A stretch of 64,000 nt of DNA from Prorocentrum cordatum (taxonomy: Eukaryota > Sar > Dinophyceae > Prorocentrales > Prorocentraceae): assembly GCA_963575745.1 (NCBI GenBank), contig CAUYUJ010018474.1, positions 21,001 through 85,000 on the forward strand, read 5' to 3'. The notes under the pieces were generated by a model. The model was not told where the DNA came from, ran no database searches, and saw only the letters and a list, made by a program, of their open reading frames with translations. Below are positions 5,432 through 63,262 of this stretch, in pieces (the stretch's first letter is position 1; the number at the start of each line of letters is the position of its first letter). Both the position numbers and the translations under genes were made by a program.

Positions 5432-5757
5432 ACGAGAGTGAGCGGACGCGACGAGCTGGCGACCAGCTTGGCACGCAAGGCATACGCATGAAACTGAGCT
5501 CTCGAGAGAGGGTCTGTGACACTCGAATCAGGAACACGACGGGCCGTCGAAAGGCAAAACGCAGAAACAAAAACACCCAATTGACGTTGTCGGAAGCCTT
5601 TGACCGAAGTGGGACAGCTCACGAGATTGTGTTTTATTATCAGCCCTCATGGGTTGTTCTCGTTTTGAATAACGCACAGGGTAGCGTCTTCTCCTCCCGC
5701 CTCCCTCCTTAACTTCCCTTCTGCCTCTTACCTGGCCCTGTCCTGTCAGCCTGCCTC

Positions 5758-9721: not shown

Positions 9722-12700
9722 CTACTTCAGCAGGTGCAGGTAGTCGCACTTGGAGACGCCCTCCATCGCCTTCTCCAACGCGGTCACCTGCGGCGTGGTC
9801 TGGCTCTGGTTGGCGCCGGTGTCGGTTGCCGCTGACTTCGCCGTCAGCACCTCATCGTACCTTGCAGCCATGCCGAGACCGCCGATGACGTCGCTCGAAG
9901 ACTTGACGGCACCCTTGGAGTCCTTGCCCTTGCCCTTGCCCTTGCTCTTCTCAGCCTTTTCACCTGGGATCACGGCCCTGTTCAATTTCAGGGGCGCCTT
10001 CTGGCAAAGGGCGTGCGCCGTGGGTCCCAGATAAAAGACCCGCACTGGGACCTTCGAAATGTCGCCATCAGGACCACTGCACAGATACTCTGGGAGCTCG
10101 AACTCGATGATGTTGACGTTCACTGCCAAGATTGGAGTCACGGTTGAGGGCGGGGCGGCGGCCTCCGCGCCCGTCGAGCCCGTCGAGCTCTTGCGCTTCC
10201 TGCCCCCTTTCCCCTTCGCCTGCTGCACCTGCTGCTGCTCTGCGTCCTCGACGGTCTCGACCATCCACGAGGGGATGGGGCAGGGCCCCGCGATGTCATG
10301 CTCAGCGGGGTTATAGTTCAAGAACAGCGGGATCTGGATGGCGCTCTCGTCCTCGCCATCAGGCGTAAGCCCAGCGATCGTGACAATGTGGAACGAAGAC
10401 GCCTTGCCCCTGGTAGGCTCGACGTTGCCAGCGAAGTACAGCGTGAAATTCTCTGCGAGCTCCCTCGTAGAAACCAGGGTGGCAGCCGGGGCCTTTCCAG
10501 CGCCGGCTCCCGAGGGCGGCAAGACTTCGACATCCACGTGCTCAAAAATGTCGTCCTCTGGTTGGAAGGCCAAGTTGAACAGCTCCGACTCCAGGTGCGT
10601 GGCCAACTGCTTCACGAAGGCCGCGGTGATCTCGTGCTCAGGCAGCTTGAGGATGCAAGGTGTGGCGCCCCACGTGGAGTGCGCCACCGCTTGCGCCGCC
10701 CTCAGACGTTCCCCTTTCAAGTTTCCCACCAGGGAGGCGCTCTGGTGGCCCATCAGCTCGGAGAGCGTTCCCAGGCGCAACGCGCTGGGCTGCGGCGGCG
10801 CCGCCTCCACAAGCTGCAGGGCGGGGGCGGCGGCGGCGGTGGCGGAAGTAGTAGTTGATTCCGCCTCCAGCTCCGCGATCTGCTTCTCGAACTCCTCCTG
10901 GGCTGCCTTGCTGGCCTCCGCGATGCCGAACACGGTCTGCACGGTGGCGCTCAACTGCGCCATCTCGAGGAACTTCGGGTCGGTTGCCGTCTTCTCGGGG
11001 TCTGCGATGGCCTTAGCCGCGATCGAGTCCAGAATCATGGCCCACACAGAGATCCACACTGAGCGGCCACGGCCCGCTGTTCGCAAGTCCAGCACTTGAA
11101 GCTCAGAAAAGAGGAGATCTTTCTGCACCTCCGCCTTGAGCACAGACATCAAGGAATCCACTGCTTCTGGCTGCAGGGCGTCGCCACCGCCTTGCGAAGT
11201 CGTCCATGAGATGCCCTTGGACTTGGAACGGGCCAGCACGGAGCAGGTGACCTCTGCCATGAGCTTGGCGCGGAGAGACAGGTAGCCCTGCGCAGTCTCC
11301 AAGTCCAGGAGCTCGTCAACCACCTGGGCATCGGTATAAAGGAGAAGAGTCCGAAGGGAGAACAGACCAGGGCATCAGCATGAAGGCATGTACCAACTTG
11401 CTTTTTTTCATGGCTCTGGGCCCCAGTGGGGCCCCGGGCTCCGCCAGAGTTCATCGTCACATATCCTGGCCATATCCTCCCTTCGGCTCCTCTCCCTTAC
11501 GCCGCTGCCACCTCTGGCGAGGAGAAGTTGGGGTAGGCTTCGGCGTCAGCCCAGACGAACGCAATCTTGGGGATAGGGTCCATGTACTCGTCCTCCATCG
11601 TCGGCAGCCCGACGCTGGAGATCGCCTTGGTGATCCAGGTGATAATGTTAGCGAGCGGCTGTTTGACGTTGCTCGCATTCCTCCTGTAGATCTCATCCTT
11701 CATGTCATGCTCGAAGCCCTTCCAAGTCTGCTGGCTGACCTCCATGAAGCACGGCAAAAAAGTCACGGGCGTGTCATGTGGATTCGCATCCAAGAAGGTG
11801 CGAAGGGTCTCGCAGAACTGCTCATCTCCGAACGCCGTGTCTATGGCAATCTCCATGGCTGTCTGGGGGGCACGATCTTGGGCATCCTCAGAAGAATCCT
11901 GACGGTCAGGGATCAACATTTTCTTGAGCTTGTCTGTCGTCAACCTCTTGGCCTCATCTCTCACCGCGCACCAGCCCGAGACCCTCTTCCTGGACCCCTC
12001 GAAGATCAACTGAGGAGACGAAGGAGGGGGGTCACCGGCCATGGGATGAGGAGAAAGGAGGAGAGGGGAATATGATGATTATAAGGATGACGGCGGGATC
12101 GGATGAGGACGGATATAGGGATAAGGATGATGGGCATAAGAAAGGGTAGAGAGGGGGGCAGAGATGAGAGGGACGAGGGGGGGAGGGGAGGAGGGCCGAG
12201 GAGGGGAGTGAGGACGATGGGCGAGGGGAGGAGGGAAGGAGGAGGAAGCCTCCCCATTGCCGTTCCAGGCGAACTCGAAGCTGATCCTGATGAACATCCT
12301 CTTCGCCTGGCTGGGGAGCAGAGGACGGGACCGCCCGGGCGGGGGGGGCCGAGGGGAGGGGAGGGAGGGCTGCCCTCTCCTCCTCCCAACTTCCTCCCTC
12401 CTCTCTCCTCCCTCCTTCCCTCCCTCCTCTCCTCCTCTTCTTCCTCCTCCTCCTCCTCCTTGTGCTCCTCGTGTTTTTCCTCCTCCTCCTCCTCCTCCTC
12501 TTCCTCCCTCCTCCTCCTCCTCCTCCTCCTCCTCCTCCTCCTCCTCCTCCTCCTCCTCCTCCCAGTGGCCTTCTCCACCGAGCCATTCTCGGTCGCCGTA
12601 GTGCGCATAGCAGAAGTGACGCCCTTGCTGCCCATGGCATCGGACACCGCCGCGTTCATCGCCAGGATGACGTCCTCGAGCCAGGAAATCCGCATCCCAG

Positions 12701-14302
12701 CTGCCGTGGCCAACTTCTGCACGGCCTCCAGGTGCTTGAGCTCCACTGCGCCGCCAGCAGCCTGCCCGCGACCAGCGCCGCCGCCGCGGCGACCGCGGCC
12801 CCGGCCGGCGCCGGCGTCGCCCTTCTTGTCCTCCTTGCCCTTGTCTTGGCCTTGCTCCTCAGACTTGTTCTCATCAGGCTTAGACTTCTCCTCCTTCGGC
12901 TTCTCTGGATCCTTCGGGAGAGACGGCTGCTTCCCAGTAAGCTTGCGACGCTTGCCATCCTGGTCCTGGGTCAAGTGCTTGGCGTTGGGCTTGTCGCCTC
13001 CCTGCGTCTGGGCCTGGGTCTGGTCCTTCCTTTGAGCAGCCAGTTTTAACTCGCGCAGCTTGTCAATTGACTTCTGGTACGCTTGTAGAACTTCCCACCA
13101 GAGATGTCGGCGAACAGGATCTTCTTCATAGTCGTTGTCCGTGAGGGCTTCTGCAAAACCCATGAAACTTTCGCGGCGTCTCTGTCTAACACCTTGCCCC
13201 CGCCATCATCATCTGCAACATCGACGGCCAGGTCGTCCGCGAGCGTCGGCACCAAGAACTTGAAGGACTCCTCCATCAATATCCGCAGGACCGCTGGGTC
13301 GATGCACTGGTTGATCGGCTTGCCTTTGAGTAAGTTGGTCCACGTAGTAAGGAGTATCTTCAGGCATTCGAGCACGCTTGAGTTCCTGACCCTACCATCT
13401 CCGAAGACGCATGTTTCAAGCATGAGTGATCGAAAAAATTTGAAGCCGTCATGGCCCGGATCAGCCTGGTCGATCTCGGCGAACCGCTCGGAGATGAACC
13501 TGCAAAGCTCATAGAACACGTTCGAAGGGATGATGCCCTGCTTCACCTGGTCCTTGTAGTTATCGCAGATCCACTTCCAGACTTTCTGCCGACGGGACTC
13601 ATCGTTGCCAGAAGCCCATCCCGGATTCATGTGCTCATGTGCGGCCAAGTCGGCCGTTATCTTTCTCGCCCACTCCAGTGTCTCCACATAGTTGATGCCA
13701 GCTTTCTGGTTCCAATCAAAATTCATGAAATCTTTCATCCAGACCAAGGCGTCGAGAGGCGCCTGGCATTGATACACCTGCACTCTGGTAAGGCCTTTCT
13801 CAAGAGCCGCTTTGACATTCTCGTTGCCACGATGATGCTCGGCCGCGTGGTAAAAGGCGGTGGCCAGGTGAGCGAACGAGAACAAACGATATGGTGGTAC
13901 GTCTCCTTCACTTAGTTGGCGCATGGGCACGCCGCGAGCATCGTTTGCAATTCCCCACGTCAAAATGTTTTTGACTTGTTGAGAAAGCGTCTCCTTTTGT
14001 TCTCGATCGTTGACGTCCATGTGGCGAACGAAATTGCGCCTGCCGGTAGTGGGATCGCACCAAGGAATCGTAGCGTTCAACATCGTCCGCACTCCGAAAA
14101 GACTTTTGCAAAGATCCAGCCGCCGAGCACCCTGGACAGTCGGGAAACGCTTCTCCACGTTCATGATCGACTTGTCGAACGCGAGCCTCAGAGTGTCCGG
14201 CGAGTTGTCGCTCGCCGTGCCCGCTGCCACTCCGTCTGCCAGCACCCCTGGCGAGGACCCTGAAGTCTGGGAGTCGGCTGGAGCCTGCGACTGCGACGCC
14301 AT
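9722..14302 (-). CDS. Large hypothetical protein, four exons (about 1,261 aa)
   Basis: Not recognised. Proposed exons 14302-13198, 13150-12579, 12009-11503 and 11323-9722 give one continuous frame, from ATG (MASQSQAP) to a stop at 9722. The first exon (about 370 aa) is mostly helical with many aromatic residues, for example WKWICDNYKDQVKQG and SVLECLKILLTTWTNLL. The second begins with a probable coiled coil (LQAYQKSIDKLRELKLAAQ), then a long K/E/D-rich stretch and an RGRGRRGGG tract. The last exon has a coiled coil, Ala/Pro and Lys-rich linkers (KGKGGRKRK, SKGKGKGKD) and beta-rich segments. The charged linkers suggest a nuclear or nucleic-acid-associated protein, but that is inference. Exon 1 joins exon 2 through a 47-nt GC-AG intron. 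The donor of the 12 kb intron is uncertain (12578, or a GC donor nine bases further in). A 38 bp minisatellite lies just upstream of the start. Confidence 0.55.
11324..11502 (-). other. 179-nt intron with near-perfect inverted repeats at its ends
   Basis: In sense orientation the intron begins GCGTAAGGGAGAGGAGCC and ends CTCCTTTATACCGATGCCCAG. The reverse complement of the 3' end reads GTATAAAGGAGAAGAGTCC and continues GAAGGGAGAA, matching the 5' end over roughly 23 of 27 positions. Phase 0 on both sides with a GC donor joins PEVAA to VVDELL. Confidence 0.65.
12010..12578 (-). other. Polypurine/polypyrimidine hairpin intron
   Basis: In sense orientation the 5' half is almost pure purine ((GGA)n and variants) and the 3' half is pyrimidine-rich, so the RNA could fold on itself. 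Near the ends, GGCCACTGGGAGGAGGAG pairs with the complement of GGCCATGGGATGAGGAG. The acceptor is CTCCTCAG at 12010. On the plus strand it contains the (TCC)n tract at 12,505-12,562. Confidence 0.5.
13151..13197 (-). other. 47-nt GC-AG mini-intron
   Basis: Sense GCAAGG...TTTTGCAG. Removing it joins VADDDGG to EALTDNDYEEDP and resolves the frame change between the two long open frames on either side. Phase 1 on both sides. Confidence 0.55.
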
Positions 14303-14454
14303 CCCGCTACTGATGAGCTGCGAGGTAGATTCAGCACTGTGTGGTCGAATTCCACGACGGGGGTCTCGCTAGAGATGATGACCTCCCTTAGAAGGCCGCG
14401 CTGGAAGCTCGACAACAAAAGGCCACCACGGCGAGGGAAGGGAGAGGAGGGGCC

Positions 14455-15550: not shown

Positions 15551-18500
15551 TCACACTCGCCCAATGCCTGCCACATCGGCATATCTCGTCCACCCAAGCG
15601 CATACATCAGGACGCACCCTGCAACATTTACATTCATTGAGTTTCCAGCCTGCTTGATAATGGCCCGGCGATTCTGGCCAGACACATCGGCGCGATTCGT
15701 GAAGCTACAAAAGGGAGGCTCAGGCGGCAACGGGCCCTGCGCCCTCGTCAGTGCCACGACTGGAAACCCTTGGAGCAGCAACAGCTGCGGGCGTGAGCCA
15801 CCGCCCCTGCACGGGGGCAAAAGAAAGGCACTTGCAAGTGATCGCGCGCAGCACCTCGCTCGTGCTGTACACCGCTCGCTTGTTCGGATCCTCTGTGGAC
15901 GTCAAGAATGCCAGAGCCATCCCCGGGGGCCAAGTGTCCGACTCTGAATTTGACACGGGGCTCGGGGTTCCAAGTTGGTGGACACGGCCTATTCCCCTCC
16001 CCCCTCTCCACTCCCCCCCCCTCCCCCGAGGGCCCATCAAACTCTGAGTTGGACACGGGCCCCAACTCTAAGTTGGACACAGAACGAGTCCGGGGGACAG
16101 GGCGACGACAGATGAGAGTCCGAGGTCCTGCGTCAGGTTGACAACAGCGCCCTCAGGCACATTCGGAAGCTCCGCGTACTCCTCCAAGAACTTGACCTCG
16201 CTCTCGATAAGAGATGCCAAGTGGTCGCCAGCCTTCACGACGTAGTCATTGCCTGGAGTGTCCGTGCGCCACCTCGAACCAGGCCTGCGACGCGACCATT
16301 GCAGCTCCTGGAGAATCTCCGAGTCGGTCGCCACGAGGAAGGCTCGCCAAGTGCAGCTGCGGGGATGTCCGAGGAGCTGAATGACATTGTCTAGAGTCGA
16401 AATCTTCTCGTTCACCTTCTGCTTGCTCGCCAGTAGCGCCCAACGCCGCGGCCTTCGAACAGGCCAGCCAAGACTAGAAGGGCAAATGATCGTCGCGCAG
16501 ATGATATACATGTCCCCCAGGGAGTCCTGCAATATGTCCACGCTGAAGAGGTGTGAATTCTCATGCATGATCAACGCCAGGGCTGAACACCTCATCAACG
16601 CCACCCACGCCACGAAGATATTGAGCGTCTTGCCCTTGACGGTGGCTCGAAGACCCTTTGGCGAGAAATCGATGCACGGCGTTCCTGCGATGTGCAGGCG
16701 GCCAACTTTGAACCTGCATCTAGGCGTGGCGTGGCAAATGCATGTGCACATCCCGCTGATCTTGCCAGTCTCGCGCCAGAGGGTGGTGGAGAGATCGTCC
16801 AAAGTCAATTCTCGATTGGACTTGAGATCTTTGAGCTTGTTATTGATGTTCTCGCTGAGGAATCCCACTATATCTCCAAATAAGCACTCTGGTGCGCCAG
16901 GATGTTCTAGTAATTCGGCCTGACAATGTTTGTCAATCTCCACTGCGCTGGTGCGCCTCGGATGCTCGCAGGAGTGCCCCAGTTTGGACATCGCATGCGC
17001 TAGGCCATGCAACGCTGCCCCCGGGGCATCAATGCCTGAAAAAGCAGTGCTGTACCTCAAGGTGCGCATCCGATGCACGACGGAAGCTATGGGCAAAGGG
17101 CATCGCTTGATTACTCCGCCCAGAACTCGTTGCGGCCAGTCAAGCAGACCCTGGGGGCTGGCAGGGGAGTCGTCCATGGCGGTCCCTGGAGGTCTGTCTG
17201 CGTCGTCGTCGGCGGCGGCGACTGGACCGCCACCACCGTCGCCCTTCAATTCGTTTGGCATCCTGACCCGTTCAACGACCCTTCGCTCTAGTTTGCGCCT
17301 CTTGGGCCCACCAATCGCCCATGGCAGCGCGTTCTTCCTAGTGCACACCGCGCCGCCGGCGAAAGAAGCTGTGTCCTCAACCAAATCCGCGCCAGCTGCG
17401 CTATCAGCGCCAGCCATCGGCGGCATGTCAACTGGCGCTGCGCCGTCGTCGAAGTCGGCGAAGGCTTCCTCGAACAAGTCGTCGTCAGCTGCGCTGTCAA
17501 CCCCAGACATCGCCATGTTGCCCCCGTGGGCTCGGGGGGCCAAGCACCTTGAGGAAAGTAGAGCTGCCGCCGCTTGCTCTGGAGAGGTTGGCGCCGATGG
17601 CGCGGCTAGCGCTGCTGCTGGGGCTGGGCTGTCTGGCACGGCTGGGTCTGCTGTGGGGCTAGGCGGCACAGAGGCTGAGACATCGCCCATGTCGTCGACG
17701 ATGGCACTCGCGTGGCGATTCTGGAGAGGCTGCCATTGCAAGATCGCCGCCGCGTCTGGAAAGGCTGCCGCCGCCTCCGGGGCATCTGGGGCACCTGGGA
17801 AGCACGGCTCCAGCGCCACTGGCTCGGCGAGAGGCTCAGGGAGCTCAAGGCCGAGCGGCTCAGTGCCCAGGTGCTGGGCATTCACTGTTGGCTCCAGCCC
17901 GACGTTCTGCGTGGGCTGGCTGTCCTGTGGAACAGTCGGCGCCGGCGCCCTTGTAATGGCTGTGGCTGGCGCTGATGTGGCTGATGGGCTCTCTGGCGCA
18001 CGCGTCGGCGATGCTGCCGATGCTGGGCCTGTGCCTGGAGAGGCCGGCGTCGCCGGCCTGGGCTGGGCTGCCGCTGCTGGCGCCAGCGGGCTGTCTGGGC
18101 AAGCGTTCCCAGGCTGAGCAGAGCCAGCGACCGAAGAGCTGCAGCCCTCGCCCCATCCATCAGAGTTCCCACTGCGAGATGCAGCAGACGCCACAGCAAA
18201 ATATAATCTGCTTTGCTTGATCGCCTTTTCGACGATATCGTGCTTGGTGAATAGAGTCCACGGTTGCCTCCTGCGCTGCGAAAGCATAACCCCCCCTCTC
18301 TCTCCCGCCCCCCCTCCTCCTCCGGAGGAGGGAACTTAAGGAATGATGGGGCGGGGGCCTCATCCTTCTCATCCTCCCCCCTCCCCTCCCCCCTCCCCAT
18401 TTGTATTTTTCCTCATCATTCCCCATCAATCATCATTCTTGCCCCCCGCTCGCGGCGCCCCGGCATGAATGCGGACGAGGGAGCGGTCTTGAAGGGGAAG

Positions 18501-19833: not shown

Positions 19834-21060
19834 CCATATAATCGAACGCACTTGCGCGACCCAGGGAGCACGCTCAAGTGCCATTGGATGACCACGTGAG
19901 GCCGTTCAAGAGGCCTTGAATGCCCCCAGGGCCGTTCAAGGGCCCTTGAGTGGCTCCCAGGGGTCGTTCAAGGGCCCTTGAACGCCCCCCGGGGCCGTTC
20001 AAGGGTCCTTGAATGGCGCCCGGGGGCCGTTCAAGAGCCCGTGAGCGCCGCCCGGGAGGCTTTCAAGGGCCCTTGAACGGCCCCCGGGAGCCATTCGAGG
20101 GCCCTTGAACGGCTCCGGGTGGCGGTCAAGGGCCCTTGAATGGCCCCTGGAAGCCATTCAAGGGCCCTTGAACGACCCTGGGGGGGCGTTCAAGGACCCT
20201 TGAACGGCCCCCGGGAGCCATTCAAGGGCCCTCGAACGGCCCCCGGGAGCCATTCAAGGGCTCTTGAACGGCCCCCGGGAGCCATTCAAGGGCCCTTGAA
20301 CGGCTCCGGGAGCCATTCGAGGGCCTTGGAATGGCCCCTGGGAGCCATTCAAGGGCCCTCGAACTACCCGCGGGAGCCATTCAAGGGCCCTTGAAAGGCC
20401 ATGTGAGCATTCGAGTGCCTCTGAACGGCCACACGTGGTCATTCAAGGGCCCTTGAGCGTAGTCCCCGGGTCGCGCAAATGCGTTCAATTGTATGTCAGA
20501 TGCGTGTTACACGGTAATGAAAAAATCAATTATGTTTGAAACAGACTAACGCATTTTCATATATTTCATTGGTTGTTTGATAAATCATTTCAATATTTTT
20601 TGTTTGCCGGAAGGATTTTTTCATAAAAAACACATGGTTTCTATGTGCTTCTTAAAGAAACATAAGGTGTTTTTATATATAAAGAAATTATTCATTTGTT
20701 AAGTATGGTACCATTAATGCTTGATGTTCTTCTATGGTTTTTCGTATAACTTGGATGGATTTCTCAAGCGTCTCAATGGTCATGTAGCCGTCTGGCTGTT
20801 TATACATCTGGTTGTTTGTTGTATGCTATGTGTCTTTATTATGTTGACCATGTTTTTTGTCGATACGAGGTATCAAAGTATAATGAGATTGTAATGTGCG
20901 TGATCTCTTTCCTATCGTATTGCACTGCCTCTGGTGCTTCTCATTGTAAACGACACTAACCAAACCAACACATATGGACGCCACTGTGCACCCTCGAATG
21001 CCATTCAAGCACACGCGCTGTGACGTATAAATAACTTACTAACTCGTATAAACATCATTG
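19190..21060. other. AT-rich island without genes
   Basis: Base composition changes abruptly from GC-rich to AT-rich and back. No credible coding frame is present. The borders carry related short sequences: cttgaataccattcaagcgcatgtgct near 19,250 and ctcgaatgccattcaagcacacgcgct near 20,993, in the same orientation. A (TA)n run lies at 19,798-19,829. The island encloses the inverted-repeat element at 19,838-20,497. Confidence 0.7.
19838..20497. mobile_element. 660 bp element with about 44 bp terminal inverted repeats and internal palindrome array
   Basis: The left end reads ATCGAACGCACTTGCGCGAC and continues CCAGGGAGCACGCTCAAG; the right end is its reverse complement with only a few substitutions (ATTGAACGCATTTGCGCGAC...). 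Between them about 16 units of 36-40 bp repeat, each centred on the palindrome TTCAAGGGCCCTTGAA or a one- to two-base variant, alternating with GGCCCCCGGGAGCC-like GC-rich palindromes. No protein is encoded. This resembles a foldback or MITE-type element. No target-site duplication could be identified in the AT-rich flanks. Confidence 0.75.
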
Positions 21061-22044: not shown

Positions 22045-30979
<8,935 letters not shown>

Positions 30980-36289: not shown

Positions 36290-37080
36290 CGGTCGTGGGC
36301 CCATCGTCGCCCCCCTCGTGGAGCGCTCTTGGGCCGTCTTGGGACCTCTTTGGCCTCTCTTGGGCCGTCTTGGAGCTAATTATCTTGAGCCGTCTTGGGG
36401 GCATATCTTGGAGTCCTTGTGGGCCGCCTTGAGACCTCCTGAGCCCCCCATTGGGGCTGAAACTCTGTGCAAAACTTCTCTCGCTAGCGCGCTTTCCGTC
36501 ATGCTATGGGAATGATATTAAACGTTTTCTGGGGCCGACCCCCTCCCCAATTCGCACGCCCTCGCGTAGACCGCCCCACCTGAAATTGCTCCCCCCGCGC
36601 TCCCTTCGGCCTCCAAACGGCCAAGGTAGCCGTCGTGAAGGCGTCACCACCACGGCTCAAGGTGGCCCAAGACCTCTCAAAAGTCTTAAACGACGGCCTC
36701 CAGACGGCCCAACAGGCCCCCAAGATGGCCCAAGAGGGCTCCAAGAGGCCCTCCAGGAGAGCCCGAGGAGGCGAAACACATGAATTGTCCTTCGGTTTCT
36801 GATGACTGTTGAAATTCTCTATTGTTGGGGCTTCCGACCGTCCAGTACTGCCCAAGAGGCCTCCAAGGTCGCTCCAAGACAGCCCAGGATGCCCCCAAGA
36901 GGGCCCCAAGTCGGCCCAAGAGGACCCCAGGATCGCCCAAGAGGCGCCAAAACGGCCCAGTAAAGCCTCATAAGAAGGCTTCCGAGGGCACCAGACAGGC
37001 TATGAGCCCTCCAAGACGGCCCAAACAGGCCCCAAAGAGGCCCCAGGCAGCCCCCATGAGGCCTCCGAGACGCACGCAGC
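36290..37080. repeat. CCAAGAGG/CTTGGGGCC irregular repeats
   Basis: Reverse-orientation copies (cttgggcc) at 36,290-36,440 and forward copies (ccaagagg, ccaagatgg) at 36,650-37,070, with unique sequence between. A small stem acgggcgcagcccgt follows at 37,115. Confidence 0.65.
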
Positions 37081-37164
37081 AGGTAGGAAACATTGATCTG
37101 CCATATTTGTGTTTTACGGGCGCAGCCCGTAATTTGATTTTCGCGAGGTAGACAGACTGAACTG

Positions 37165-39100
37165 AACCACCAGGCCGTTAGATGGCAGTTTTATTTCCGC
37201 GGGTGAGGATATGTCGGTAGCAGTTTTATGCCAGCGGATGAAGGTATTTCGGTGGCAGTTCTAAGCCCGCGTATGAGGATATGTCGGTGGCAGTTTTAAG
37301 CCAGCGGGTGAGGATATTTCGGTGGCAGTTTCAAGCCAGCGGGTGAGGATATTTCGGTGGCAGTTTTGAGCCAGCAGTTGAGGATATTTCGGTGTTTCAG
37401 CGGGTGAGGATATTTCGGTGGCAATTTATTTCCACGGGTGAGGATATTCCGGTAGCAGTTTAAGCCAGCCGGTGAGGATATTTCGGTGGCAAATTTAAGC
37501 CAGCGGGTGAGGAAATTTCGGTGGCAGATTTATTTCCGCGGGTGAGGGTATTTTGGCGGCAGTTTTAAGCCGGCAGATGAGCATATTTCGGTCGCAGTTT
37601 TATTCCCGCGGGTGAGGATATTTCGGTGGCAGTTCTAAGCCAGCGGGTGAGGATATTTCGGCGGCAGTTTTAAGCCAGCGGGTGAGGATATTTCGATATT
37701 TCGGTGGCAGTCTCAAGCCAGCGGGTGAGGATATTTCGGTGGCAGTTTTATTTCCGCGGGTGAGGATATTTCGATGGCAGTTTTAAGCCAGCGGGTGAGG
37801 ATATTTCGGTGGCAGTTTTATTTCCGCGGGTGAGGATATTTCGGTGGCAGTTTTAAGCCAGCGGGTGAGGAAATTCGGTGGCAGTTTTAAGCCAGCAGAT
37901 GAGGATATGTCGGTGGCAATTTTATTTCCGCGGTTGAGGATATTCCGGAGGCAGTTTTAAGCCAGCGGGTGAGGATATTTCGGTGGCAGTTTTAAGCCAG
38001 CGGGTGAGGATATTTCGGTGGCAGTTTTATGCCAGCGGGTGAGGATATTTCGGTGGCAGTTTTAAGCAAGTGGGTGAGGATATTTCGGTGACAGTTTTAA
38101 GCCAGCGGGTGAGGATATGTCGGTTGCAGTTTTAAGCCAGCGGGTGACCATCACCCGCTCGACAACACCTCGATAACACCCGATAACACGTCGATAACAT
38201 GTTTCCGAGATGTGTTCGAGATGTTATCGAGGTGCTATCGAGTGTGATCGAGCTCGATAACGCTCGAGAGCACCTCGATAACGCTCGATGACACCTCGAT
38301 AGCATGAGGTGTTATCGATGTGTTATCGAGTGTTATCGAGCGGTGGCAGTTTTAAGCCAGCAGATGAGGATATTTCGGTGGCAGTTTTATTTCAGCGGGT
38401 GAGGATATTTCGGTGGCAGTTTCAAGCCAGCGGGTGAGGACATTTCGCTGGCAGTTTAACCCAGCGGGTGAGGATTTTTCGGTGGCGGCTTTAAGAAAGC
38501 GGGTGAGGATATTTCGGTGGCAGTTTTATTTCCGCGGGTGAGGATATTTCGGTGGCAGTTTTAAGCCAGCAGGTTCGGAAATTTCGGTCTCAGTTTTAAG
38601 CCAATGGGTGAGGATATTTCGGTGGCAGTTTTAAGCCGGCGGTTGAGGATATTTCGGTGGCAGTTTTAAGCCAGCGGGTGAGGATATTTCGGTGGCAGTC
38701 TCACTTCCGGGGGTGAGGATATGTCGGTTGCAGTTTTCAGCCAGCGGGTGAGGATATTCCTGTGGCTGCTTTGATCCAGCGGGTGAGGATATGTCGGTGG
38801 CAGTTTTAAGCCAGCGGGTGAGGAAATGTCGGTGGCAGTTTTAAGCCAGCAGATGAGGATATGTCGGTGGCAATTTTATTTCCGCGGTTGAGGATATTCC
38901 GGAGGCAGTTTTAAGCCAGCGGGTGAGGATATTTCGGTGGCAGTTTTAAGCCAGCGGGTGAGGATATTTCGGTGGCAGTTTTATGCCAGCGGGTGAGGAT
39001 ATTTCGGTGGCAGTTTTAAGCAAGTGGGTGAGGATATTTCGGTGACAGTTTTAAGCCAGCGGGTGAGGATATTTCGATGGCAGTTTTAAGCCCGCGGAGG
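37165..39100. repeat. 35 bp minisatellite array, roughly 50 copies
   Basis: Unit GGTGGCAGTTTTAAGCCAGC followed by GGGTGAGGATATTTC. Two versions alternate: ...TTTTAAGCCAGCGGG... and ...TTTTATTTCCGCGGG.... The array is interrupted at 38,147-38,342 by unrelated foldback sequence. About 255 bp at 37,850-38,110 is repeated almost exactly at 38,808-39,062, a recent internal duplication. All frames are closed, so it does not encode protein. Confidence 0.95.
38147..38342. mobile_element. Foldback insertion of CTCGATAACA repeats inside the minisatellite
   Basis: About 195 bases made of CTCGATAACAC and its complement GTGTTATCGAG in both orientations, starting CGCTCGACAACACCTCGATA and ending in the inverse. 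The minisatellite resumes directly afterwards with cggtggcagttttaagcc, so this is an insertion or an internally expanded foldback. Confidence 0.75.
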
Positions 39101-39329
39101 AGGAGGAGAAGGAGGAGGGAGGAACCGAGAATATCTGTGCTCGGCGCGGGCATCCAGCCGCCACGCGATGCGTCATTCGCTTAGTTGGCCCAGCCGACGG
39201 CTACGCATCCAGCGCGGTGCTGCGACCGTATATATGCTCGCCCCTTTGCGTGGGGCTGGCGGGGGGCCAAGGGGCGAGCTGTCTGGTGATTGACATATCT
39301 TGAGTTTCTTGACTCTTTGCGTTTCCGAT

Positions 39330-39870: not shown

Positions 39871-40392
39871 CCCCATTCCCAAAGACCCCATTCGCCCGAT
39901 GAAGACCATGCCTCCCCCCCAATCGAGCTAGTAGTTAGCACACCCAGGGATGGACCATGCCGGCCTTGACGAGACAGCAGATACCACGAGCGTTCCCAGG
40001 AGCAATTCGCACAAGCGGGGCTGGAACCCGTCTGCAACGCCCGAGAAGGCGAGGGTGCAAGACGGAAGTTCGGCGGGGGCAGCTAGCACCGCGTACTAGC
40101 TGTGCTGTGCTAACTGTTCGCTCCGAACTACAACTCCCGTAACGGTATCTACTCGGGGGGGGCAGGGAATGGAAGTTGTAAGGGGCGGGGAACGCAGGGG
40201 CGGGGGTACGTTCCGATCGCCATGATATGCGCGCAAGCACCAGCATGTGGGGGGGGGTCCAGGACCCCCCCCTCTTACGTTCGATCGTTACCGCTACCTG
40301 GGAGGTGGCTTCGCCCAGATAGCGACAGTTACGCGCCAGAGAATTTAGAAAGAAACCATGCCCACGGGGAGAAGCGGGGGACAAGGATTAGG

Positions 40393-40552
40393 TCGGGCAT
40401 GTCCTCCTGCAGGCGGATTTCGACGCAACAAAAATTCAGGATAGTCCAAACATATCCAAAACTAGTCAAGCAAAATCGGAAAATCGTCCCCAGACTATGT
40501 TTTGACGATCTTTGAGCAGTCCTCCTGCAGAGGGACATGCCCGACTTGAAGC
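40393..40552. mobile_element. MITE-like element, family 1, copy 2
   Basis: Left TCGGGCATGTCCTCCTGCAG, right CTCCTGCAGAGGGACATGCC followed by CGAC: about 22 bp terminal inverted repeats with few mismatches. It is about 160 bp, AT-richer inside, with no open frame. Confidence 0.8.
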
Positions 40553-41537: not shown

Positions 41538-41690
41538 GGTCGGGCATGTCCCCCTGCAGGCGGGGTTTCGACGAATAGTACATGCAAGAGAAATCGGGCA
41601 TGGCAAAAAACTCGTCCCCATACTATGTTTGGACTATGTTTGAACATTCCTCCTGTCGAGGCGGCCGTGTCCGCGTCGAATCAGTGTCGA
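41538..41690. mobile_element. MITE-like element, family 1, copy 3 (right end decayed)
   Basis: The left end TCGGGCATGTCCCCCTGCAG is intact. The inside matches copy 2 (aactcgtccccatactatg versus aatcgtccccagactatg). The right end is diverged (cctcctgtcgaggcgg). In minus orientation the left end is followed by CCAAGACAG, an AG comparable to the acceptor used at copy 4. Confidence 0.65.
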
Positions 41691-42392
41691 ATCCATGTCG
41701 GCCTCGCCGGATCCGTGTCGAATCCACGCCGAATCCGCGCCGAATCCACGCCAAATCCGCGACGAGCCCGCGCCGAGCCCGGGTCGGGCACAAGAAGGGG
41801 CACCAATCTGGGAGGCAGACGGGGTCCCCCGAAGAATGCGACGTGAGAGAAGGTTGGCTCAGGAAAGGATCCGGACCTCCAGCAGGGGTCTACAGAGAAT
41901 CACGGCGTCCGGGTTCTTCTTCCTCACTGAGGCCATGGCTGGAAAGTTGCACTCCTGCCTGGCGCAGTGGGTTTTGTAGCGCTGGGCCGTTTTCAGACTG
42001 CTGAAGGCTATCCTTGGGCAGGGTGCAACAATTTGGGGCAGCTCGGGGACACCACGGTAGGCCGAGCAGGACGAGGCACATGACGGAGGAGGGGGACGAT
42101 GATGATGAGGCCGGAGGCGGGGGACGAAGACGACGGTGACGGGGACGAGAGCGGGGACGAGGACTAGGATGTGCAGGGCGCGGACGAGGAAGGTCAGGAA
42201 CGAGGGGGATTAGCAGGAGACTCAGAGTCGGTCCTGGACCCCGCCGAGGCCCATCATCCAAGTCGATGTTTCATGCCAGATGGATTTCTGACGGTCCTGG
42301 GCCACGAAGCGGGCCTCCAGAGACCGAAACGGAGCAAGTCCCTCGAGTCTCGAACATCGAAAGAGAGAGCGCTAGCGCGAGGACGATTTCGG

Positions 42393-43146
42393 CTACTGGC
42401 ACGCCAAGGTGGCCCTAGGCAAGAGTGACCCTTGGTGCGCGGCTTGCCGACCGATCAATCCACGCGATACGACAATAGCGGCCCGCGTGCTGGGATCTGC
42501 CCCACCCCACCCTAAGGAGAACCGCGCACGAAGGGACCCTCCAGCGAGGTGTCGCCCTTCCTGCACGCAGCCGCAGGCCGCCGCACATCGGGGCTCCTGC
42601 TCCAGACGACGCCGATCCCGGTCCAGCTGCGCGAGCCTGGGGAAAACAAAAGGTACCGAATCCGCTGCTCCCCGGACCTCTCCCGGGGTGCGTTCTGACC
42701 GAAAGTTCGAGGCGAATCCAGCGGTGGCAACGAGGACCCACCAGGAGGCCCAAAAAGGGGAAAACGAGCGAAGGGTAGAGGTATGCGTACCTTTTCCTCC
42801 TCTGAGAGCCTGGCATCCCACTCCGCGGACGCCTCGTCCGCGGCCCGCTCCAGCGACCTCTGGCGCTCCAGGGCGGCCTCGGAGAGAGGCCGCAGGGCGT
42901 CGTGAAGCAGATCGCAGCGGAAGGCTTCCGGCGCGTCTGGTCCCTGTGTTCGGTCGGGCATGTCCCCCTACAGGCGGACTTTGTGTGAAATCTCACAAAC
43001 AATAACAAATCTATTCCAAAATTGCCCCAAAAACTCAAAACATCGTTCCCTGGCTATGGTCTCACTATCTTTGAATCTTCCTCATGTAAAGGGACAGGCC
43101 CGACTTGCTGGGGCCTTCCGGGGCGCTCTCGTCGCCACATCCGCAT
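42393..43146 (-). CDS. Small hypothetical protein, four exons (about 104 aa)
   Basis: Not recognised. Proposed exons 43146-43105, 42943-42791, 42635-42538 and 42414-42393 give a 105-codon frame: MRMWRRERPGRPQQ, then a helical segment (LLHDALRPLSEAALERQ, ERAADEASAEWDARL), then LDRDRRRLEQEPRCAA, ending ATLACQ. An in-frame TGA lies upstream of the start. The first intron coincides with a family 1 MITE-like element and the third with a family 2 inverted-repeat element. The second intron can be placed with a GTACGC donor and a TTTTCCCCAG acceptor, with the boundary ambiguous by one G. The coiled-coil-like charge pattern suggests protein-protein contact, without evidence of function. The good phase agreement supports a real gene. 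Confidence 0.5.
42415..42537 (-). mobile_element. Inverted-repeat element, family 2, coinciding with an intron
   Basis: Sense GTCCCTTCGTGCGCGG at the 5' end and CCGCGCACCAAGGGTCAC then TCTTGCCTAG at the 3' end: terminal inverted repeats overlap the donor (GT) and lie 8-10 bases from the acceptor (AG). Splicing in phase 2 joins RHLAGG to ATLACQ and a stop. Confidence 0.6.
42944..43104 (-). mobile_element. MITE-like element, family 1, copy 4, coinciding with an intron
   Basis: Sense GTCGGGCCTGTCCC at the 5' end, with GT as donor, and GGGGGACATGCCCGAC at the 3' end followed by CGAACACAG with AG as acceptor. The 161-nt intron is therefore the element plus nine bases. The exons on both sides stay in frame. 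Confidence 0.65.
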
Positions 43147-44259: not shown

Positions 44260-45600
44260 TGGGGGTGCGCAGAGGGTGGTCCCTCAGCGCGGCCTCTATC
44301 CGTGACACGCTCGCAGATCCCGCATGCGTGGCACTTTCTCGCACACACGCAGTAGTCAACACCGCTCGCACGTTGGTGTGGCCCCGTAGGGGGCTCCACC
44401 GAAGGTGCGCAGAGGGTGGTCCCTCAGCGCGGCCTCTATCCGTGACACGCTCGCAGATCGGCTGAGCAGGAGTGGCATGTCTCGAAGCGCACGGGGACAC
44501 CACAAGAGGGTGGTCCCTCAGCGCCGGCCTCTATTCCGTGACACGCTCGCAGATCGGAAGGCAGTGGCACTTTTCTCGACACCACAGGGGGTCGCGAGGG
44601 TTCGCGCGGCCTCTATCCGTGACACGCTCGCAGATCGTGGCAAGAGTGGCACTTTCTCGACACCACAGGGGGGGCGCAGAAGGTGGTCCCCCTGCGCGGC
44701 CTCTATCCGTGACACGCTCGCAGATCGTGGCAGGAATGGCACTTTCTCGACACCACAAGGGGTGCGCAGAAAGTGGTCCCTCAGCGCGGCCTCTATCCGT
44801 GACGCGCTCGCAGATCGTGGCAGGAGTGGCACTTTCTCGACACCACAGGGGGTGCGCAGAGGGTGGTCCCCCAGCGCGGCCTCTATCCGTGACACGCTCG
44901 CAGAGCGTGGCAGGAGTGGCACTTTCTCGACACCACAGGGGGTGCGCTGGTCGCGCGGCCTCTATCCGTGACACGCTCGCATATCGTGGCAGGAGTGGCA
45001 CTTTCTCGACACCACAGGGGGTGCGCAGAGGGTGGTCCCTCAGCGTGGCCTCTATCCGTGACACGCTCGCAGATCGTGAACAGGATTGGCCCACCGTGCT
45101 CGACACAACAGGGGGTGCGCAGACAGGTGGGGTCCCTCGGCGCGGCCTCTATCCGTGACACGCTCGCAGATCGTGGCAGGAGTGGCACTTTTTCGACACC
45201 ACAGGGGGTGCGCAGAGGGTGGTCCCTCAGCGCGGCCTCTATCCGTGACGCGCTCGCAGATCGTGGCAGGAGTGGCACTTTTTCGACACCACAGGGGGTG
45301 CGCAGAGGGTTGTCCCTCAGCGCGGCCGCTATGCACGTCGGTCGTCCAGGGCATAGCAGGCGTGTCACTTTCTCGACGCCATAGGGGGTGCGCAGGGGGT
45401 GGTCCCTCACCGCGGCCGCTATGCACGACGGTCGTCCAGGGCATAGCAGGCGTGGCATGTTCTCGACACCATAGAGGCTGCGCAGGGGGTGGTCCCTCAG
45501 CGCGGCCGCTATGCACGACGGTCGTCCAGGGCATAGCAGGCGTGGCACTTTCTCGACGCCATAGAGGGTGCGCAGGGGGTGGTCCCTCACCGCGGACGCT
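44260..45600. repeat. 90 bp tandem array A, about 14 copies
   Basis: Unit GCGGCCTCTATCCGTGACAC GCTCGCAGATCGTGGCAGGA GTGGCACTTTCTCGACACCA CAGGGGGTGCGCAGAGGGTG GTCCCTCAGC. From about 45,330 the first part changes to CGGCCGCTATGCACGACGGT CGTCCAGGGCATAGC while the rest is kept. The period is exactly 30 codons, so frames stay open on both strands. That openness alone is not evidence of coding. Confidence 0.95.
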
Positions 45601-46009
45601 GGCTGGCTCGAATATGTCCTCGATGGAGTATAGAAGGCTAGGAAGACGGAGGAGGTTCAAGCAATATGGCGTTGGATGACACATAGGGGAACATTCGCGA
45701 CGAGGGCTCAGAACGCAGAGTTGCGCATACATTGTAAACTTATGCAAACACATAAGATTTAAATCAAGTATGTGGGGTTCCTCGGTAGCGTAATTTTCTT
45801 CATCCGGTTCGGGTTTTTGCTAGCGGTTGTGTGCTTTTCCTCGGTTGGTGTGCTCGCCCCACTGGTTCGCGGTGGTCGGGTGTCTCCGCGATTTGGATGT
45901 CCTCGGTGAGGGTGTTTCCTCGGTTCGCATTCGTCGGTTGTGACTTCGGCTCCTCGCTTCAGCAAGGAGTACTCCTGGCACGGGGGGGGTTTTTTTTCCG
46001 AGGTCAAAG

Positions 46010-58240: not shown

Positions 58241-58269
58241 GGCGCGCGCGCGCGAAAAGAACCCAGGGC

Positions 58270-61200
58270 ATCCCAGAAGATGGCGGGAACCATGATTTTG
58301 GAGAAGTCGAGGCTGGAAAACCCCCGAAATTCCGGTTCCCGGCTCTGTCTGGCGCCCCAGGGACCCACGGCGGCCCCGAGGATGGCGGGAACCATGATTT
58401 TGGAGAGATCCAGGCCGGAAAAGCCCGAAATCGTGGTTCCCGGCTCTGTGCTCTGTGCTCTCTGCTGCCCTGTGCTCCCTCTGCTGCTCTGTACTCTCTG
58501 CTGCTCTGTGCTCTCTGCTGTTATGTGCTCTCTGCTGCTCTGTGCTCTCTGCTGCTCTGTGCTCTCTGCTGTTCTGTGCTCTTTTTGCTGCTCTTTGCTC
58601 TTTGCTGCTCTGTGCTCTCTGCTGCTCTGTGGTCTCTGCTGCTATGCGCTCCCAGGGCCCCGCGGCCCAGAGGATGGCGGGAACCATGATTTTGGAGAGA
58701 TCGAGGCTGGAAAAGCTCAAGTCCTCATGGACTTTCTAGCACAGGTGCGATCCGAGCAGTCAGCAGCAGCCCCAGCGCGAACCGACTGCCCACAAAAGCA
58801 GAATTACCCATGCGCCTAAACAACCTTAGCATGAAAGATGCCGAGCGATGGTGAAACAGCACGAGAGCTAGAACAATGCAAAACGACACGCTGGCGGCCA
58901 AGAAGATCGCAGTCGGTCGATGCTGCAGATCGCGCTGGGAGGACGAGACCGCTGGGTGGGCGGAGCGGTGCAGGCTGGCACATCGCCGCCACTCCGCGTC
59001 GTAGCGGTCTAGTCCCGAGAGCACCCCCCGCCCCCAGGCTCTGTCTGGCGCCCTGGGGACCCAGGGCAGCCCAGAAAATAGCGGTAGCCAAGATTTTGGA
59101 AAGATCGAGGCTCGAAAAACCCGAAATCCCGGTTCACGGCTCTGTTTGGCGCCCCACGGACCCACGGCGGCCAAAAGGATGGCGGAAACCGAAGCGGGAA
59201 CCGCGATTTTGGAGAGATCCAGGCCGGATAAACCCGAAATCGTGGTTCCCAGCTCTGGCTGGCGCCCCTGGGAGCCACGGCGGCCCCGAGGATGGCGGGA
59301 ACCACGATTTTGGAGAGATCCGGGCCGGAAAAGCCCGAAATCGTGGTTCCCAGCTCTGGCTGGCGCCCCTGGGGCCCACGGCGGCCCGAGAGGATGGCGG
59401 GAACCACGATTTTGGAGAGATCCAGGCCGGAAAAAATCGTGGTTCCCAGAAATCGTGGTTCCCATCTCTGGCCCGGAGGAGGATGGCGGGAACCACCCCG
59501 AGGAAAACCACCATCCCCAGCTCTGGCTGGCGCCCCTGGGACCCACGGCGGCCGATCCCAGATTTTGCGGCCGGAAAAGCCCGAAATCGTGGTTCCCAGC
59601 TCTGGCTGGCGCCCCTGGGACCCACGGCGGCCCCGAGGATGGCGGGAACCACGATTTTGGAGAGATCCAGGCCGGAAAAGCCCGAAATCGTGGTTCCCAG
59701 CTCTCTGGCTGGCGCCCCTGGGACCCACGGCGGCCCCGAGGATGGCGGGAACCATGATTTTGGAGAGATCCAGGCCGGAAAAGCCCGAAATCGTGGTTCC
59801 CAGCTCTGGCTGGCGCCCCTGGGGCCCACGGCGGCCCCGAGGATGGCGGGAACCATGATTTTGGAGAAAAGCCCGAAATCGTGGTTCCCAGCTCTGGCTG
59901 GCGCCCCTGGGGCCCACGCGGCCCCGAGGATGGCGGGAACCACGATTTTGGAGAGATCCAGGCCGGAAAAGCCCGAAATCGTGGTTCCCAGCTCTGGCTG
60001 GCGCCCCTGGGGCCCGAGGATGGCGGGAACCAAGATTTTGGAAAGATCCAGGCCGAAAAGCCCGAAATCGTGGTTCCCGCTCTGGCTGGCGCCCCTGGGG
60101 CCCAGGCGGCCCCGAGGATGGCGGGAACCACGATTTTGAGAGATCCAGGCCGGAAAAGCCCGAAATCGTAGTTCCCAGCTCTGGCTGGCGCCCCTGGGAC
60201 CCACGGCGGCCCCGAGGATGGCGGGAACCACGATTTTGGAGAGATCCAAGCCGGAAAAGCCCGAAATCGTGGTTCCCAGCTCTGGCTGGCGCCCCTGGGA
60301 CCCACGGCGGCCCCGAGGATGGCGGGAACCACGATTTTGGAGAGATCCAGGCCGGAAAAGCCCGAAATCGTGGTTCCCAGCTCTGGCTGGCGCCCCTGGG
60401 GCCCACGGCGGCCCCGAGGATGGCGGGAACCACGATTTTGGAGAGATCCAGGACGGAAAAGCCTGAAATCGTGGTTCCCAGCTCTGGCTGGCGCCCCTGG
60501 GACCCACGGCGGCCCCGAGGATGGGAGTCGCCAGGCCAGAAAAGCCCGAAATCGTGGTTCCCAGCTCTGGCTGGCGCCCCTGGGACCCACGGCGGCCCCG
60601 AGGATGGCGGGAACCACGATTTTGGAGAGATACAGGCCGGAAAAGCCCGAAATCGTGGTTCCCAGCTCTGGCTGGCGCCCCTGGGGCCCACGGCGGCCCC
60701 GAGGATGGCGGGAACCACGATTTTGGAGAGATCCAGGACGGAAAAGCCTGAAATCGTGGTTCCCAGCTCTGGCTGGCGCCCCTGGGACCCACGGCGGCCC
60801 CGAGGATGGCGGGAACCACGGTTTTGGAGAGATCCAGGCCGGAAAAGCCCGAAATCGTGGTTCCCCAGCTCTGGCTCGGCGGACCTGGGACCCACGGCTG
60901 GCCACGATGGATGGCGGGAACCATGATTTTGGAGAGATCCAGACCCGGGAAAAAACCCGAAATCGGGTTCCCAGCTTGGCTGCGCCCCGGGGGCCCACGG
61001 CGGGCCCCGGCCCCGAGGATGGCGGGAACCCATTGATTTGGAGAGAATCAACCAGAAAAGCACGAAATCATGGTTCCCGGCTCTGGCTGGCGCTCATGGG
61101 ACCCACGGAGGCCCCGAGGATGGCGGGAAACATGATTTTGGAGAGATCCAGGCCGGAAAAGCATGAAATCATGGTTCCCGGCTCTGGCTGGCGCTCATGG

Positions 61201-62145
61201 GACCCACGGAGGCCCCGAGGATGGCGGGAACCATGATTTTGGAGAGATCCAGACCGGGAAAGCCCGAAATCATGGTCCCCGGCTCTGGCTGGCGCCCCTG
61301 GGGCCCACGGCGGCCCCGAGGATGGCGGGAACCATGATTTTGGAGAGATCCACGCTGGAAAAGCCCGAAATCATGGTTCCTGGCTCTGGCTAGCGCCCCT
61401 GGGACCCACGGCGGCCCAGAGGATGGCGGGAACCCTGATTTTGGAGAGATCCAGGCCGGAAAGCCGAAATCGTGGTTCCCGCCTCCGGCTGGCGCCCGGG
61501 GCCACGGGGCCCTGAGGATGGCGGGAACCATGATTTTGGAGAGATCCAGGTCCGGAAAAGCGAAATCATGGTTCCCGCTGGCTGGCGCCCCTGGGGCCCA
61601 CGGCGGCCCCGAGGATGGCGGGAACCATGATTTTGGAGAGATCCAGGCCGGAAAAGCCCGAAATCGTGGTTCCCAGCTCTGGCTGGCGCCCCTGGGACCC
61701 ACGGCGGCCCCGAGGATGGCGCGAACAACGATTTTGGAGAGATCCAGGCCGGAAAAACCCGAAATCGTGGTTCCCAGCTCTGGCTGGCGCCCCTGGGGCC
61801 CACGGCGGCCCCGAGGATGGCGGGAACCACGATTTTGGAGAGATCCAGGCCGGAAAAGCCTGAAATCGTGGTTCCCAGCTCTGGCTGGCGACCCTGGGAC
61901 CCACGGCGGCCCCGAGGATGGCGGGAACCATGATTTTGGAGAGATCCAGACCGGAAAAACCCGAAATCGTGGTTCCCAGCTCTGGCTGGCGCCCCTGGGG
62001 CCCACGGCGGCCCCGAGGATGGCGGGAACCATGATTTTGGAGAGATCCAAGCCAGAAAAGCCCGAAATCGTGGTTCCCAGCTCTGGCTGGCGCCCCTGGG
62101 GCCCACGGCGGCCCCGAGGATGGCGGGAACCACGATTTTGGAGTT
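58270..62145. repeat. 101 bp satellite array, about 35 copies
   Basis: Unit GATGGCGGGAACCACGATTT TGGAGAGATCCAGGCCGGAA AAGCCCGAAATCGTGGTTCC CAGCTCTGGCTGGCGCCCCT GGGACCCACGGCGGCCCCGA G. Each unit contains an inverted repeat, GGGAACCACGATTT against AAATCGTGGTTCCC. Many units are truncated. The array is broken at 58,440-58,655 by a CTCTGCTG repeat and at 58,735-59,030 by unique DNA. Since 101 is not a multiple of three, long frames cycle through all three readings and are not genes. Confidence 0.97.
58440..58655 (+). repeat. CTCTGCTGCT-type repeat inside the satellite
   Basis: Short imperfect array of GCTCTGTGCTCTCTGCT units starting inside a satellite unit at its GGCTCTG; the same sequence type as the large array at 62.15 kb. 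Confidence 0.9.
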
Positions 62146-63262
62146 CTCGGCTGTTCTCTGCTGTTCTTTGCTGTTCTCTGCTGCTCTCTGCTGTTCTCTG
62201 CTGCTCTCTGCTGTTCTCTGTTGCTCTCTGCTGTTCTCTGCTGCTCTCTGCTGCTCTCTGCTGTTCTCTGTTGCTCTCTGCTGTTCTCTGCTGCTCTCTG
62301 CTGTTCTCTGCTGCTCTCTGCTGCTCTCTGCTGCTCTCTGCTGTTATCTGCTGTTCTCTGCTGTTCTCTGCTGTTCTCTGCTGCTCTCTGCTGCACTCTG
62401 CTGTTCTCTGCTGTTCTCTGCTGTTCTCTGTTGTTCTCTGCTGTTATCTGCTGTTCTCTGCTGCTCTCTGCTGCTCTCTGCTGTTCTCTGCTGTTCTCTG
62501 CTGTTCTCTGCTGCTCTCTGCTGTTCTCTGCTGTTCTCTACTGTTCTCTGCTGTTCTCTGCTGCTCTCTGCAGTTCTCTGCCGTTCTCTGCTGTTCTCTG
62601 CTGTTCTCTGCTGTTCTGTGCTGTTCTCTGCTGTTATCTGCTCTTCTCTGCTGTTCTCTGCTGTTCTCTGCTGTTTTCTGCTGTTCTCTGCTGTTCTCTG
62701 CTGTTCTCTGCTGCTCTCTGCTGTTCTCTGCTGTTCTCTGCTGTTTTCTGCTGTTCTCTGCTGTTCTCTGCGGTTCTCTGCTGTTCTCTGCTGTTCTCTG
62801 CTGCTCTCTCCTGTTCTCTGTTGCTCTCTGCTGTTCTCTGCTGTTCTCTGCTGCTCTCTGCTGCTCTCTGCTGCTCTCTGCTGCTCTCTGCTGCTCTCTG
62901 CTGCTCTCTGCTGCTCTCTGCTGTTCTCTGCTGCTCTCTGCTGCTCTCTGCTGTTCTCTGCTGTTCTCTGCTGCTCTCTGCTGCTCTCTGCTGTTCTCTG
63001 CTGCTCTGCTGCTCTCTGCTGTTCTCTGCTGCTCTCTGCTCTCTGCTGTTCTCTGCTGTTCTCTGCTGCTCTCTGCTGCTCTCTGCTGCTCTCTGCTGTT
63101 CTCTGCTGTTCTCTCTCTGCTGCTCTCTCTGCTGCTCTCTGCTGCTGTTCTCTGCTGTTCTCTGCTGTTCTCTGCTGTTCTCTGCTGTTCTCTGCTGTTC
63201 TCTGCTGCCCTCTGCTGCCCTCTGCTGTTCTCTGCTGTTCTCTGCTGTTCTCTGCTGCTCTG
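62146..63262 (+). repeat. 10 bp CTCTGCTGTT/CTCTGCTGCT array, about 110 copies
   Basis: Almost perfectly phased decamer from the end of the satellite to ctctggattgg. A few units carry single changes or 2-5 base deletions near 63,005-63,150. Stop-free in several frames on both strands (CCSLLFSA on plus, REQQRTAENS on minus); not treated as coding. Confidence 0.98.

Follow-up and report, generated by a model that had tools for sequence, protein, structure and literature searches.

A MITE-like repeat family in a Prorocentrum cordatum contig and the putative splicing of one of its copies

Genes and repeats of the window

The window, meaning the whole stretch of DNA that was analysed, is 64,000 bases long, contains no N and has a G+C content of 0.607, near the value of 59.7% given for Prorocentrum cordatum in passages of PMC10666404. 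Only one clearly identifiable gene was found in it, an intronless open reading frame of the sucrose/SLC45 transporter type on the minus strand (3755-5527), with PDB sequence matches to 'Sucrose transport protein SUC1' and 'Solute carrier family 45 member 4' and a Pfam match to MFS_2. A 755-codon open frame on the minus strand (16071-18335) carries the strings AFSGIDAPG, GTPCIDFSPKG and HENS, which we take to be cytosine-methyltransferase-like and dinoflagellate-like; searches of Pfam and PDB did not confirm this identity. Dinoflagellate retrotransposons with cytosine-methyltransferase-type enzymes are described in passages of PMC5890265.

Other searches of the window were negative. Ten of its open reading frames showed no Pfam family at E 0.01, and no relatives of two window open reading frames were confirmed in viral contigs, one giving no pattern match and the other 57 pattern-matched stretches with no relative among them. 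No tRNA was found in the window, Rfam gave no match, and the consensus of the dinoflagellate spliced leader had no match in the window at up to two or up to three mismatches. Open frames that look strongly coding and have no Pfam family run along the minus strand at 9725-14368. Repeats of 32 bp occur in both orientations around TTCAAGGGCCCTTGAA palindromes at 19896-20456, and tandem arrays were observed at 37076-39130, 44514-45619, 58261-62234 and from 62009 onward, their repeat units measuring about 35, 90, 101 and 10 bp, respectively.

Two families of short inverted-repeat elements are present. The first, which is the subject of this work, has four related copies in the window:

2404-2551: copy 1, 148 bp, inverted ends perfect (13/13)
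40392-40545: copy 2, 154 bp, inverted ends perfect (13/13)
41539 to about 41677: copy 3, about 139 bp, left end intact, right end eroded
42953-43104: copy 4, the element under study, 152 bp, inverted ends 12/13

The second is represented by a 136-bp element at 25250-25385 with perfect 17-bp inverted ends (GTGACCTTTGGTGCGCG). A stretch of 23 bp at 42419-42441 is 96% identical to the end of this family at 25244-25266, and a 20-mer from the end gives three matches against 0.01 expected. A possible degenerate partner of the end at 42419-42441 lies near 42520-42545. The segment from 40.4 to 43.1 kb, which holds three of the four copies of the first family plus this one end of the second, looks like a transposon-dense, weakly coding stretch.

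A family of short elements with inverted ends

A profile built from the four copies places them in one family and detects no fifth copy in the window. The first-pass annotation had described four copies of approximately 155 bp with terminal inverted repeats; the number is borne out, with the individual lengths listed above, and the inverted ends hold for all except copy 3, in which the right end is eroded. The end of this copy at 41677 is a reading of the alignment, the profile match stopping at 41661, and the eroded side adjoins a tandem array (41670-41776).

All four copies open with GTCGGGCATGTCC, which occurs exactly on the plus strand at 2404, 40392, 41539 and 42953, and exactly on the minus strand where copies 1 and 2 end on the right (2539-2551 and 40533-40545). 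In copy 4, the corresponding 13-mer (43092-43104, minus strand) differs from it by one mismatch, and a match with two mismatches (2045-2057) lies outside every copy. With up to two mismatches, eight matches were found in the window, six of them exact, against a shuffle mean of 2.7; since shuffles yield matches at this rate, the exact pairs rather than the match total carry the case for a repeat.

In an alignment of the four copies with 12-bp flanks, the mean column identity is 73%, and the inverted repeat of the ends continues, imperfectly, to about 25 bp. Beyond the 13-mer, all four copies share TT (-4/-3) and G (-1) in the left flank and T (+1) in the right flank. The G+C content of the copies is 0.45-0.52, compared with 0.607 for the window, and the element is thus AT-richer than its surroundings. 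Copies 1, 2 and 4 form hairpins better than shuffles (folding z-scores of -8.0/-5.3, -6.8/-5.9 and -2.9/-4.9, respectively), while copy 3 folds no better than shuffles (-1.6 and 0.2). Inverted ends, dispersed short copies, hairpin folding and AT richness relative to the window all support the earlier description of the element as MITE-like. Copies 1 and 2 combine perfect ends with diverged interiors, which suggests that they may derive from separate source subfamilies rather than from a single recent burst.

The family had also been called unrecognised, and this agrees with an open-access full-text search with two 10-mers of the repeat: no relevant title appeared among the matches listed, and by title none of these was an introner or protist transposon paper. 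Viral contigs and prokaryote genome contigs gave no pattern matches to further copies, as is expected for a eukaryotic family.

The copies, at most 154 bp in length, are too short to encode a transposase. A transposase for the family was not found in the 64,000-nt window, and no autonomous relative was seen. Exact duplications of at least 2 bases abutting the ends were present at none of the four copies. The best flanking repeat, CAAG[T/A]GTGC at copy 1 (8/9, offset by 4 and 1 bases), ranks near the 95th percentile when compared with 3,000 random intervals; it may be a target-site duplication, but no such repeat flanks copy 2, whose ends are just as perfect. Since neither a clear target-site duplication nor an autonomous relative came to light, the elements are not assignable to a transposon superfamily.

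The family probably consists of short non-autonomous MITE-like DNA transposons with palindromic ends, on which a transposase would act in trans. The ends would be recognised by such an enzyme and the elements moved by cut-and-paste. Given GT at the start of the ends on either strand and AG/G close to the far end, a copy that landed in a gene could be spliced out; for copy 4 such splicing is putative.

Copy 4 as a candidate intron

The first-pass annotation had made copy 4 the whole first intron of a gene at 42.4-43.1 kb. Its parts are as follows:

43105-43146, minus strand: model exon 1, generic coding score -5.8, below background
43103-43104, minus strand: candidate GT donor, the first two bases of copy 4, putative
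42944-42945, minus strand: candidate AG/G acceptor CACAG/GG, nine bases past the other end of the element, putative
42787-42943, minus strand: model exon 2, generic coding score +2.1, mildly coding
42393-42629, minus strand: model exon 3, generic coding score -22.5, about -14.5 without the stop penalty, below background

The exon coordinates are a reconstruction from that annotation, which listed none. The codon scores are home-made and rough, and for exon 3 a set deduction of 8, due to the stop codon of the exon, is part of the score. As claimed, copy 4 read on the minus strand begins with GT (43104), and an AG lies nine bases beyond its other end (42944). A second AG/G, CCTGTAG/GGG, lies inside copy 4, 15 nt before the element end on the minus strand, and leaves the frame unchanged. 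A possible alternative GC donor, CCA/GCAAGT, is located three bases upstream of the copy 4 GT.

These signals would suit an introner, that is, an element whose insertions in genes are excised by the spliceosome, with GT from its own end and AG/G either from the flank (CACAG/GG) or from the internal CCTGTAG/GGG. Such a reading is possible, if unlikely. The GT at the first base, the AG/G nine bases past the end and the open frames all agree with it, and dinoflagellates do have introners with inverted ends, according to passages of the papers cited below. Exon 2 is mildly coding in the very frame that the intron would require; its other two frames score -11.4 and -29.7. Among 12360 sampled frames, 5185 were open, and 279 of these equal or exceed its score. 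Exons 1 and 3, however, count against an introner. Exon 1, which in the frame of the model must end in phase 0, as MRMWRRERPGRPQQ, has its score of -5.8 in that frame, and the same stretch in another frame (ADVATRAPRKAPA) scores -1.9. The other frames of exon 3, stops included, score -25.6 and -36.5, and the exon overlaps the second MITE-like family, since the end at 42419-42441 lies within it. With exons 1 and 3 below background and exon 3 in part a repeat, a model that is consistent from start to stop, as the gene had been described, does not serve as evidence of splicing.

Coding signal is weak around all four copies. No stretch scoring at least 9 by the generic codon score, applied to the whole window with low complexity dropped, lies within 300 bp of any copy, and the window-trained score found near the copies only a poly-Glu stretch (8.2, at 2727-2783; two regions scored). 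This would fit an element situated within a larger intron or in intergenic DNA, where genuine splicing uses other sites nearby and the sites seen at the element resemble splice sites by coincidence. Passages of PMC10666404 give a mean intron of 4709 bp for Prorocentrum cordatum, and insertions into introns would be common in such a genome. Against this reading, which we consider improbable, no real exon-intron structure is established here in either direction.

Because intact ends begin with GT by construction, an AG close by and an open frame are all that an apparent intron needs, and the frequency of such models was estimated in two ways. In the first, random 152-bp intervals were taken with the donor given, and a model was counted as strict when it had AG/G up to 12 nt past the end, an in-frame ATG no more than 300 nt upstream and a frame that stayed open for 150 nt downstream. 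Such a model appeared at 9.1% of intervals on one given strand and at 17.6% on either strand (20,000 intervals each); with any AG, the values were 22.3% and 39.9%. Widening the acceptor range, so that it began 30 nt inside the element and reached 20 nt beyond its end, gave a model on either strand at 44.6% (AG/G) and 71.6% (any AG) of random intervals, and three of the four real copies have one over the same range, with AG/G or with any AG. In the second, the flanks were shuffled around each real element in 1,500 rounds. At least one of the four copies then showed the strict model in 45% of rounds, and copy 4 itself in 14%. Among the real copies, only copy 4 has the strict model, which is a point for an introner; its frequencies in random intervals on either strand and in flank shuffles nevertheless place the coincidence of element and intron, which had been offered as evidence, within chance for this one window and its four copies. 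An open spliced model with any AG exists in copies 2, 3 and 4, and three or more such copies were reached in 10% of shuffle rounds, again in favour of an introner. Copy 1, on the opposite side, lacks a model on both strands, also when any AG is accepted.

A third test compared the best spliced flanks, 75 nt per side, of eight copy-strand cases with those of 5375 random GT-starting intervals, the end of copy 3 being set at 41664. None of the eight cases reached the 90th percentile by the generic or the window-trained score. Copy 4 on the minus strand ranks above the median but below the 75th percentile by the generic score, which places copies 1 and 2 on the plus strand in the 75th-90th range; by the window-trained score, all three are in that range. 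The any-AG result and the plus-strand scores of copies 1 and 2 weakly favour splicing, none of them being significant and two strands being open to each copy. The best-scoring join at copy 4 speaks against an introner, as it takes an AG 16 nt past the end with a different exon 1 frame and not the AG at 9 nt of the annotated model. AG/G recurs 9 nt from copies 3 and 4 and 11 nt from the second family; this was considered as a pattern and set aside because the flanks are not enriched over the AGG frequency: by our own arithmetic, 3 of 10 element-strand flanks have AG/G within 24 nt, against about 4 of 10 expected from an AGG frequency of 0.0231.

An introner of this kind might even be spliceable whichever way it was inserted, which appears quite improbable. 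The palindromic ends give GT on either strand in copies 1, 2 and 4, the right end of copy 3 being lost. By eye, an internal AG/G near the far end can be seen on the minus strand as CCTGYAG/G in copies 2, 3 and 4 and as CCTGTAG/A in copy 1, and on the plus strand of every copy directly ahead of GGACATG or what remains of it. Splicing on the minus strand would leave behind 15 nt (GGGGACATGCCCGAC) in copies 3 and 4, an addition of five codons that is free of stops in any frame. The most likely reading of the whole is an ordinary MITE family, of which some copies are possibly spliced.

Comparison with known introners and MITEs

Introners are documented in several dinoflagellates. Passages of PMC9860276 describe family 1 of Symbiodinium microadriaticum, those of PMC11453091 cite Roy et al. 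2023 for Polarella glacialis and others, and those of PMC10666404 and PMC7789003 report introner elements in Prorocentrum cordatum and Amoebophrya, respectively. As far as these passages describe them, the present element resembles dinoflagellate introners in being short and dispersed, in its inverted ends and its potential to form a hairpin, and in having GT at its end with AG/G nearby; their splicing, however, was annotated from transcripts or from many introns, whereas the splice sites here are predicted from one window. The Symbiodinium introner has 4-bp duplications and its own 3' splice site, and takes the 5' site from the target (passages of PMC9860276). Here, in contrast, the GT would be carried by the element, with the target as a possible source of the AG, and there is no clear duplication. 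The Chrysochromulina introners, as summarised in Fig. 2C of PMC9860276, carry the 5' splice site and take the 3' site from the target, an arrangement that the present element would match; they have 4-bp duplications and no inverted ends, whereas inverted ends are present here.

The likeness to MITEs lies in the length of about 150 bp, the inverted ends, the several dispersed copies and the lack of space for a transposase. What sets the family apart is that its superfamily is not assignable, as it offers neither a clear target-site duplication nor an observed autonomous relative.

As a plain MITE family, these elements would be routine. They also provide a calibrated warning: if a window is GC-rich and has many long open frames, an element whose ends begin with GT will often mimic an in-frame intron by chance. 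Transposon-derived introns are thought to explain bursts of intron gain, and, if copies of this family are spliced, they would represent one more family of such introns in a lineage where these are already documented.
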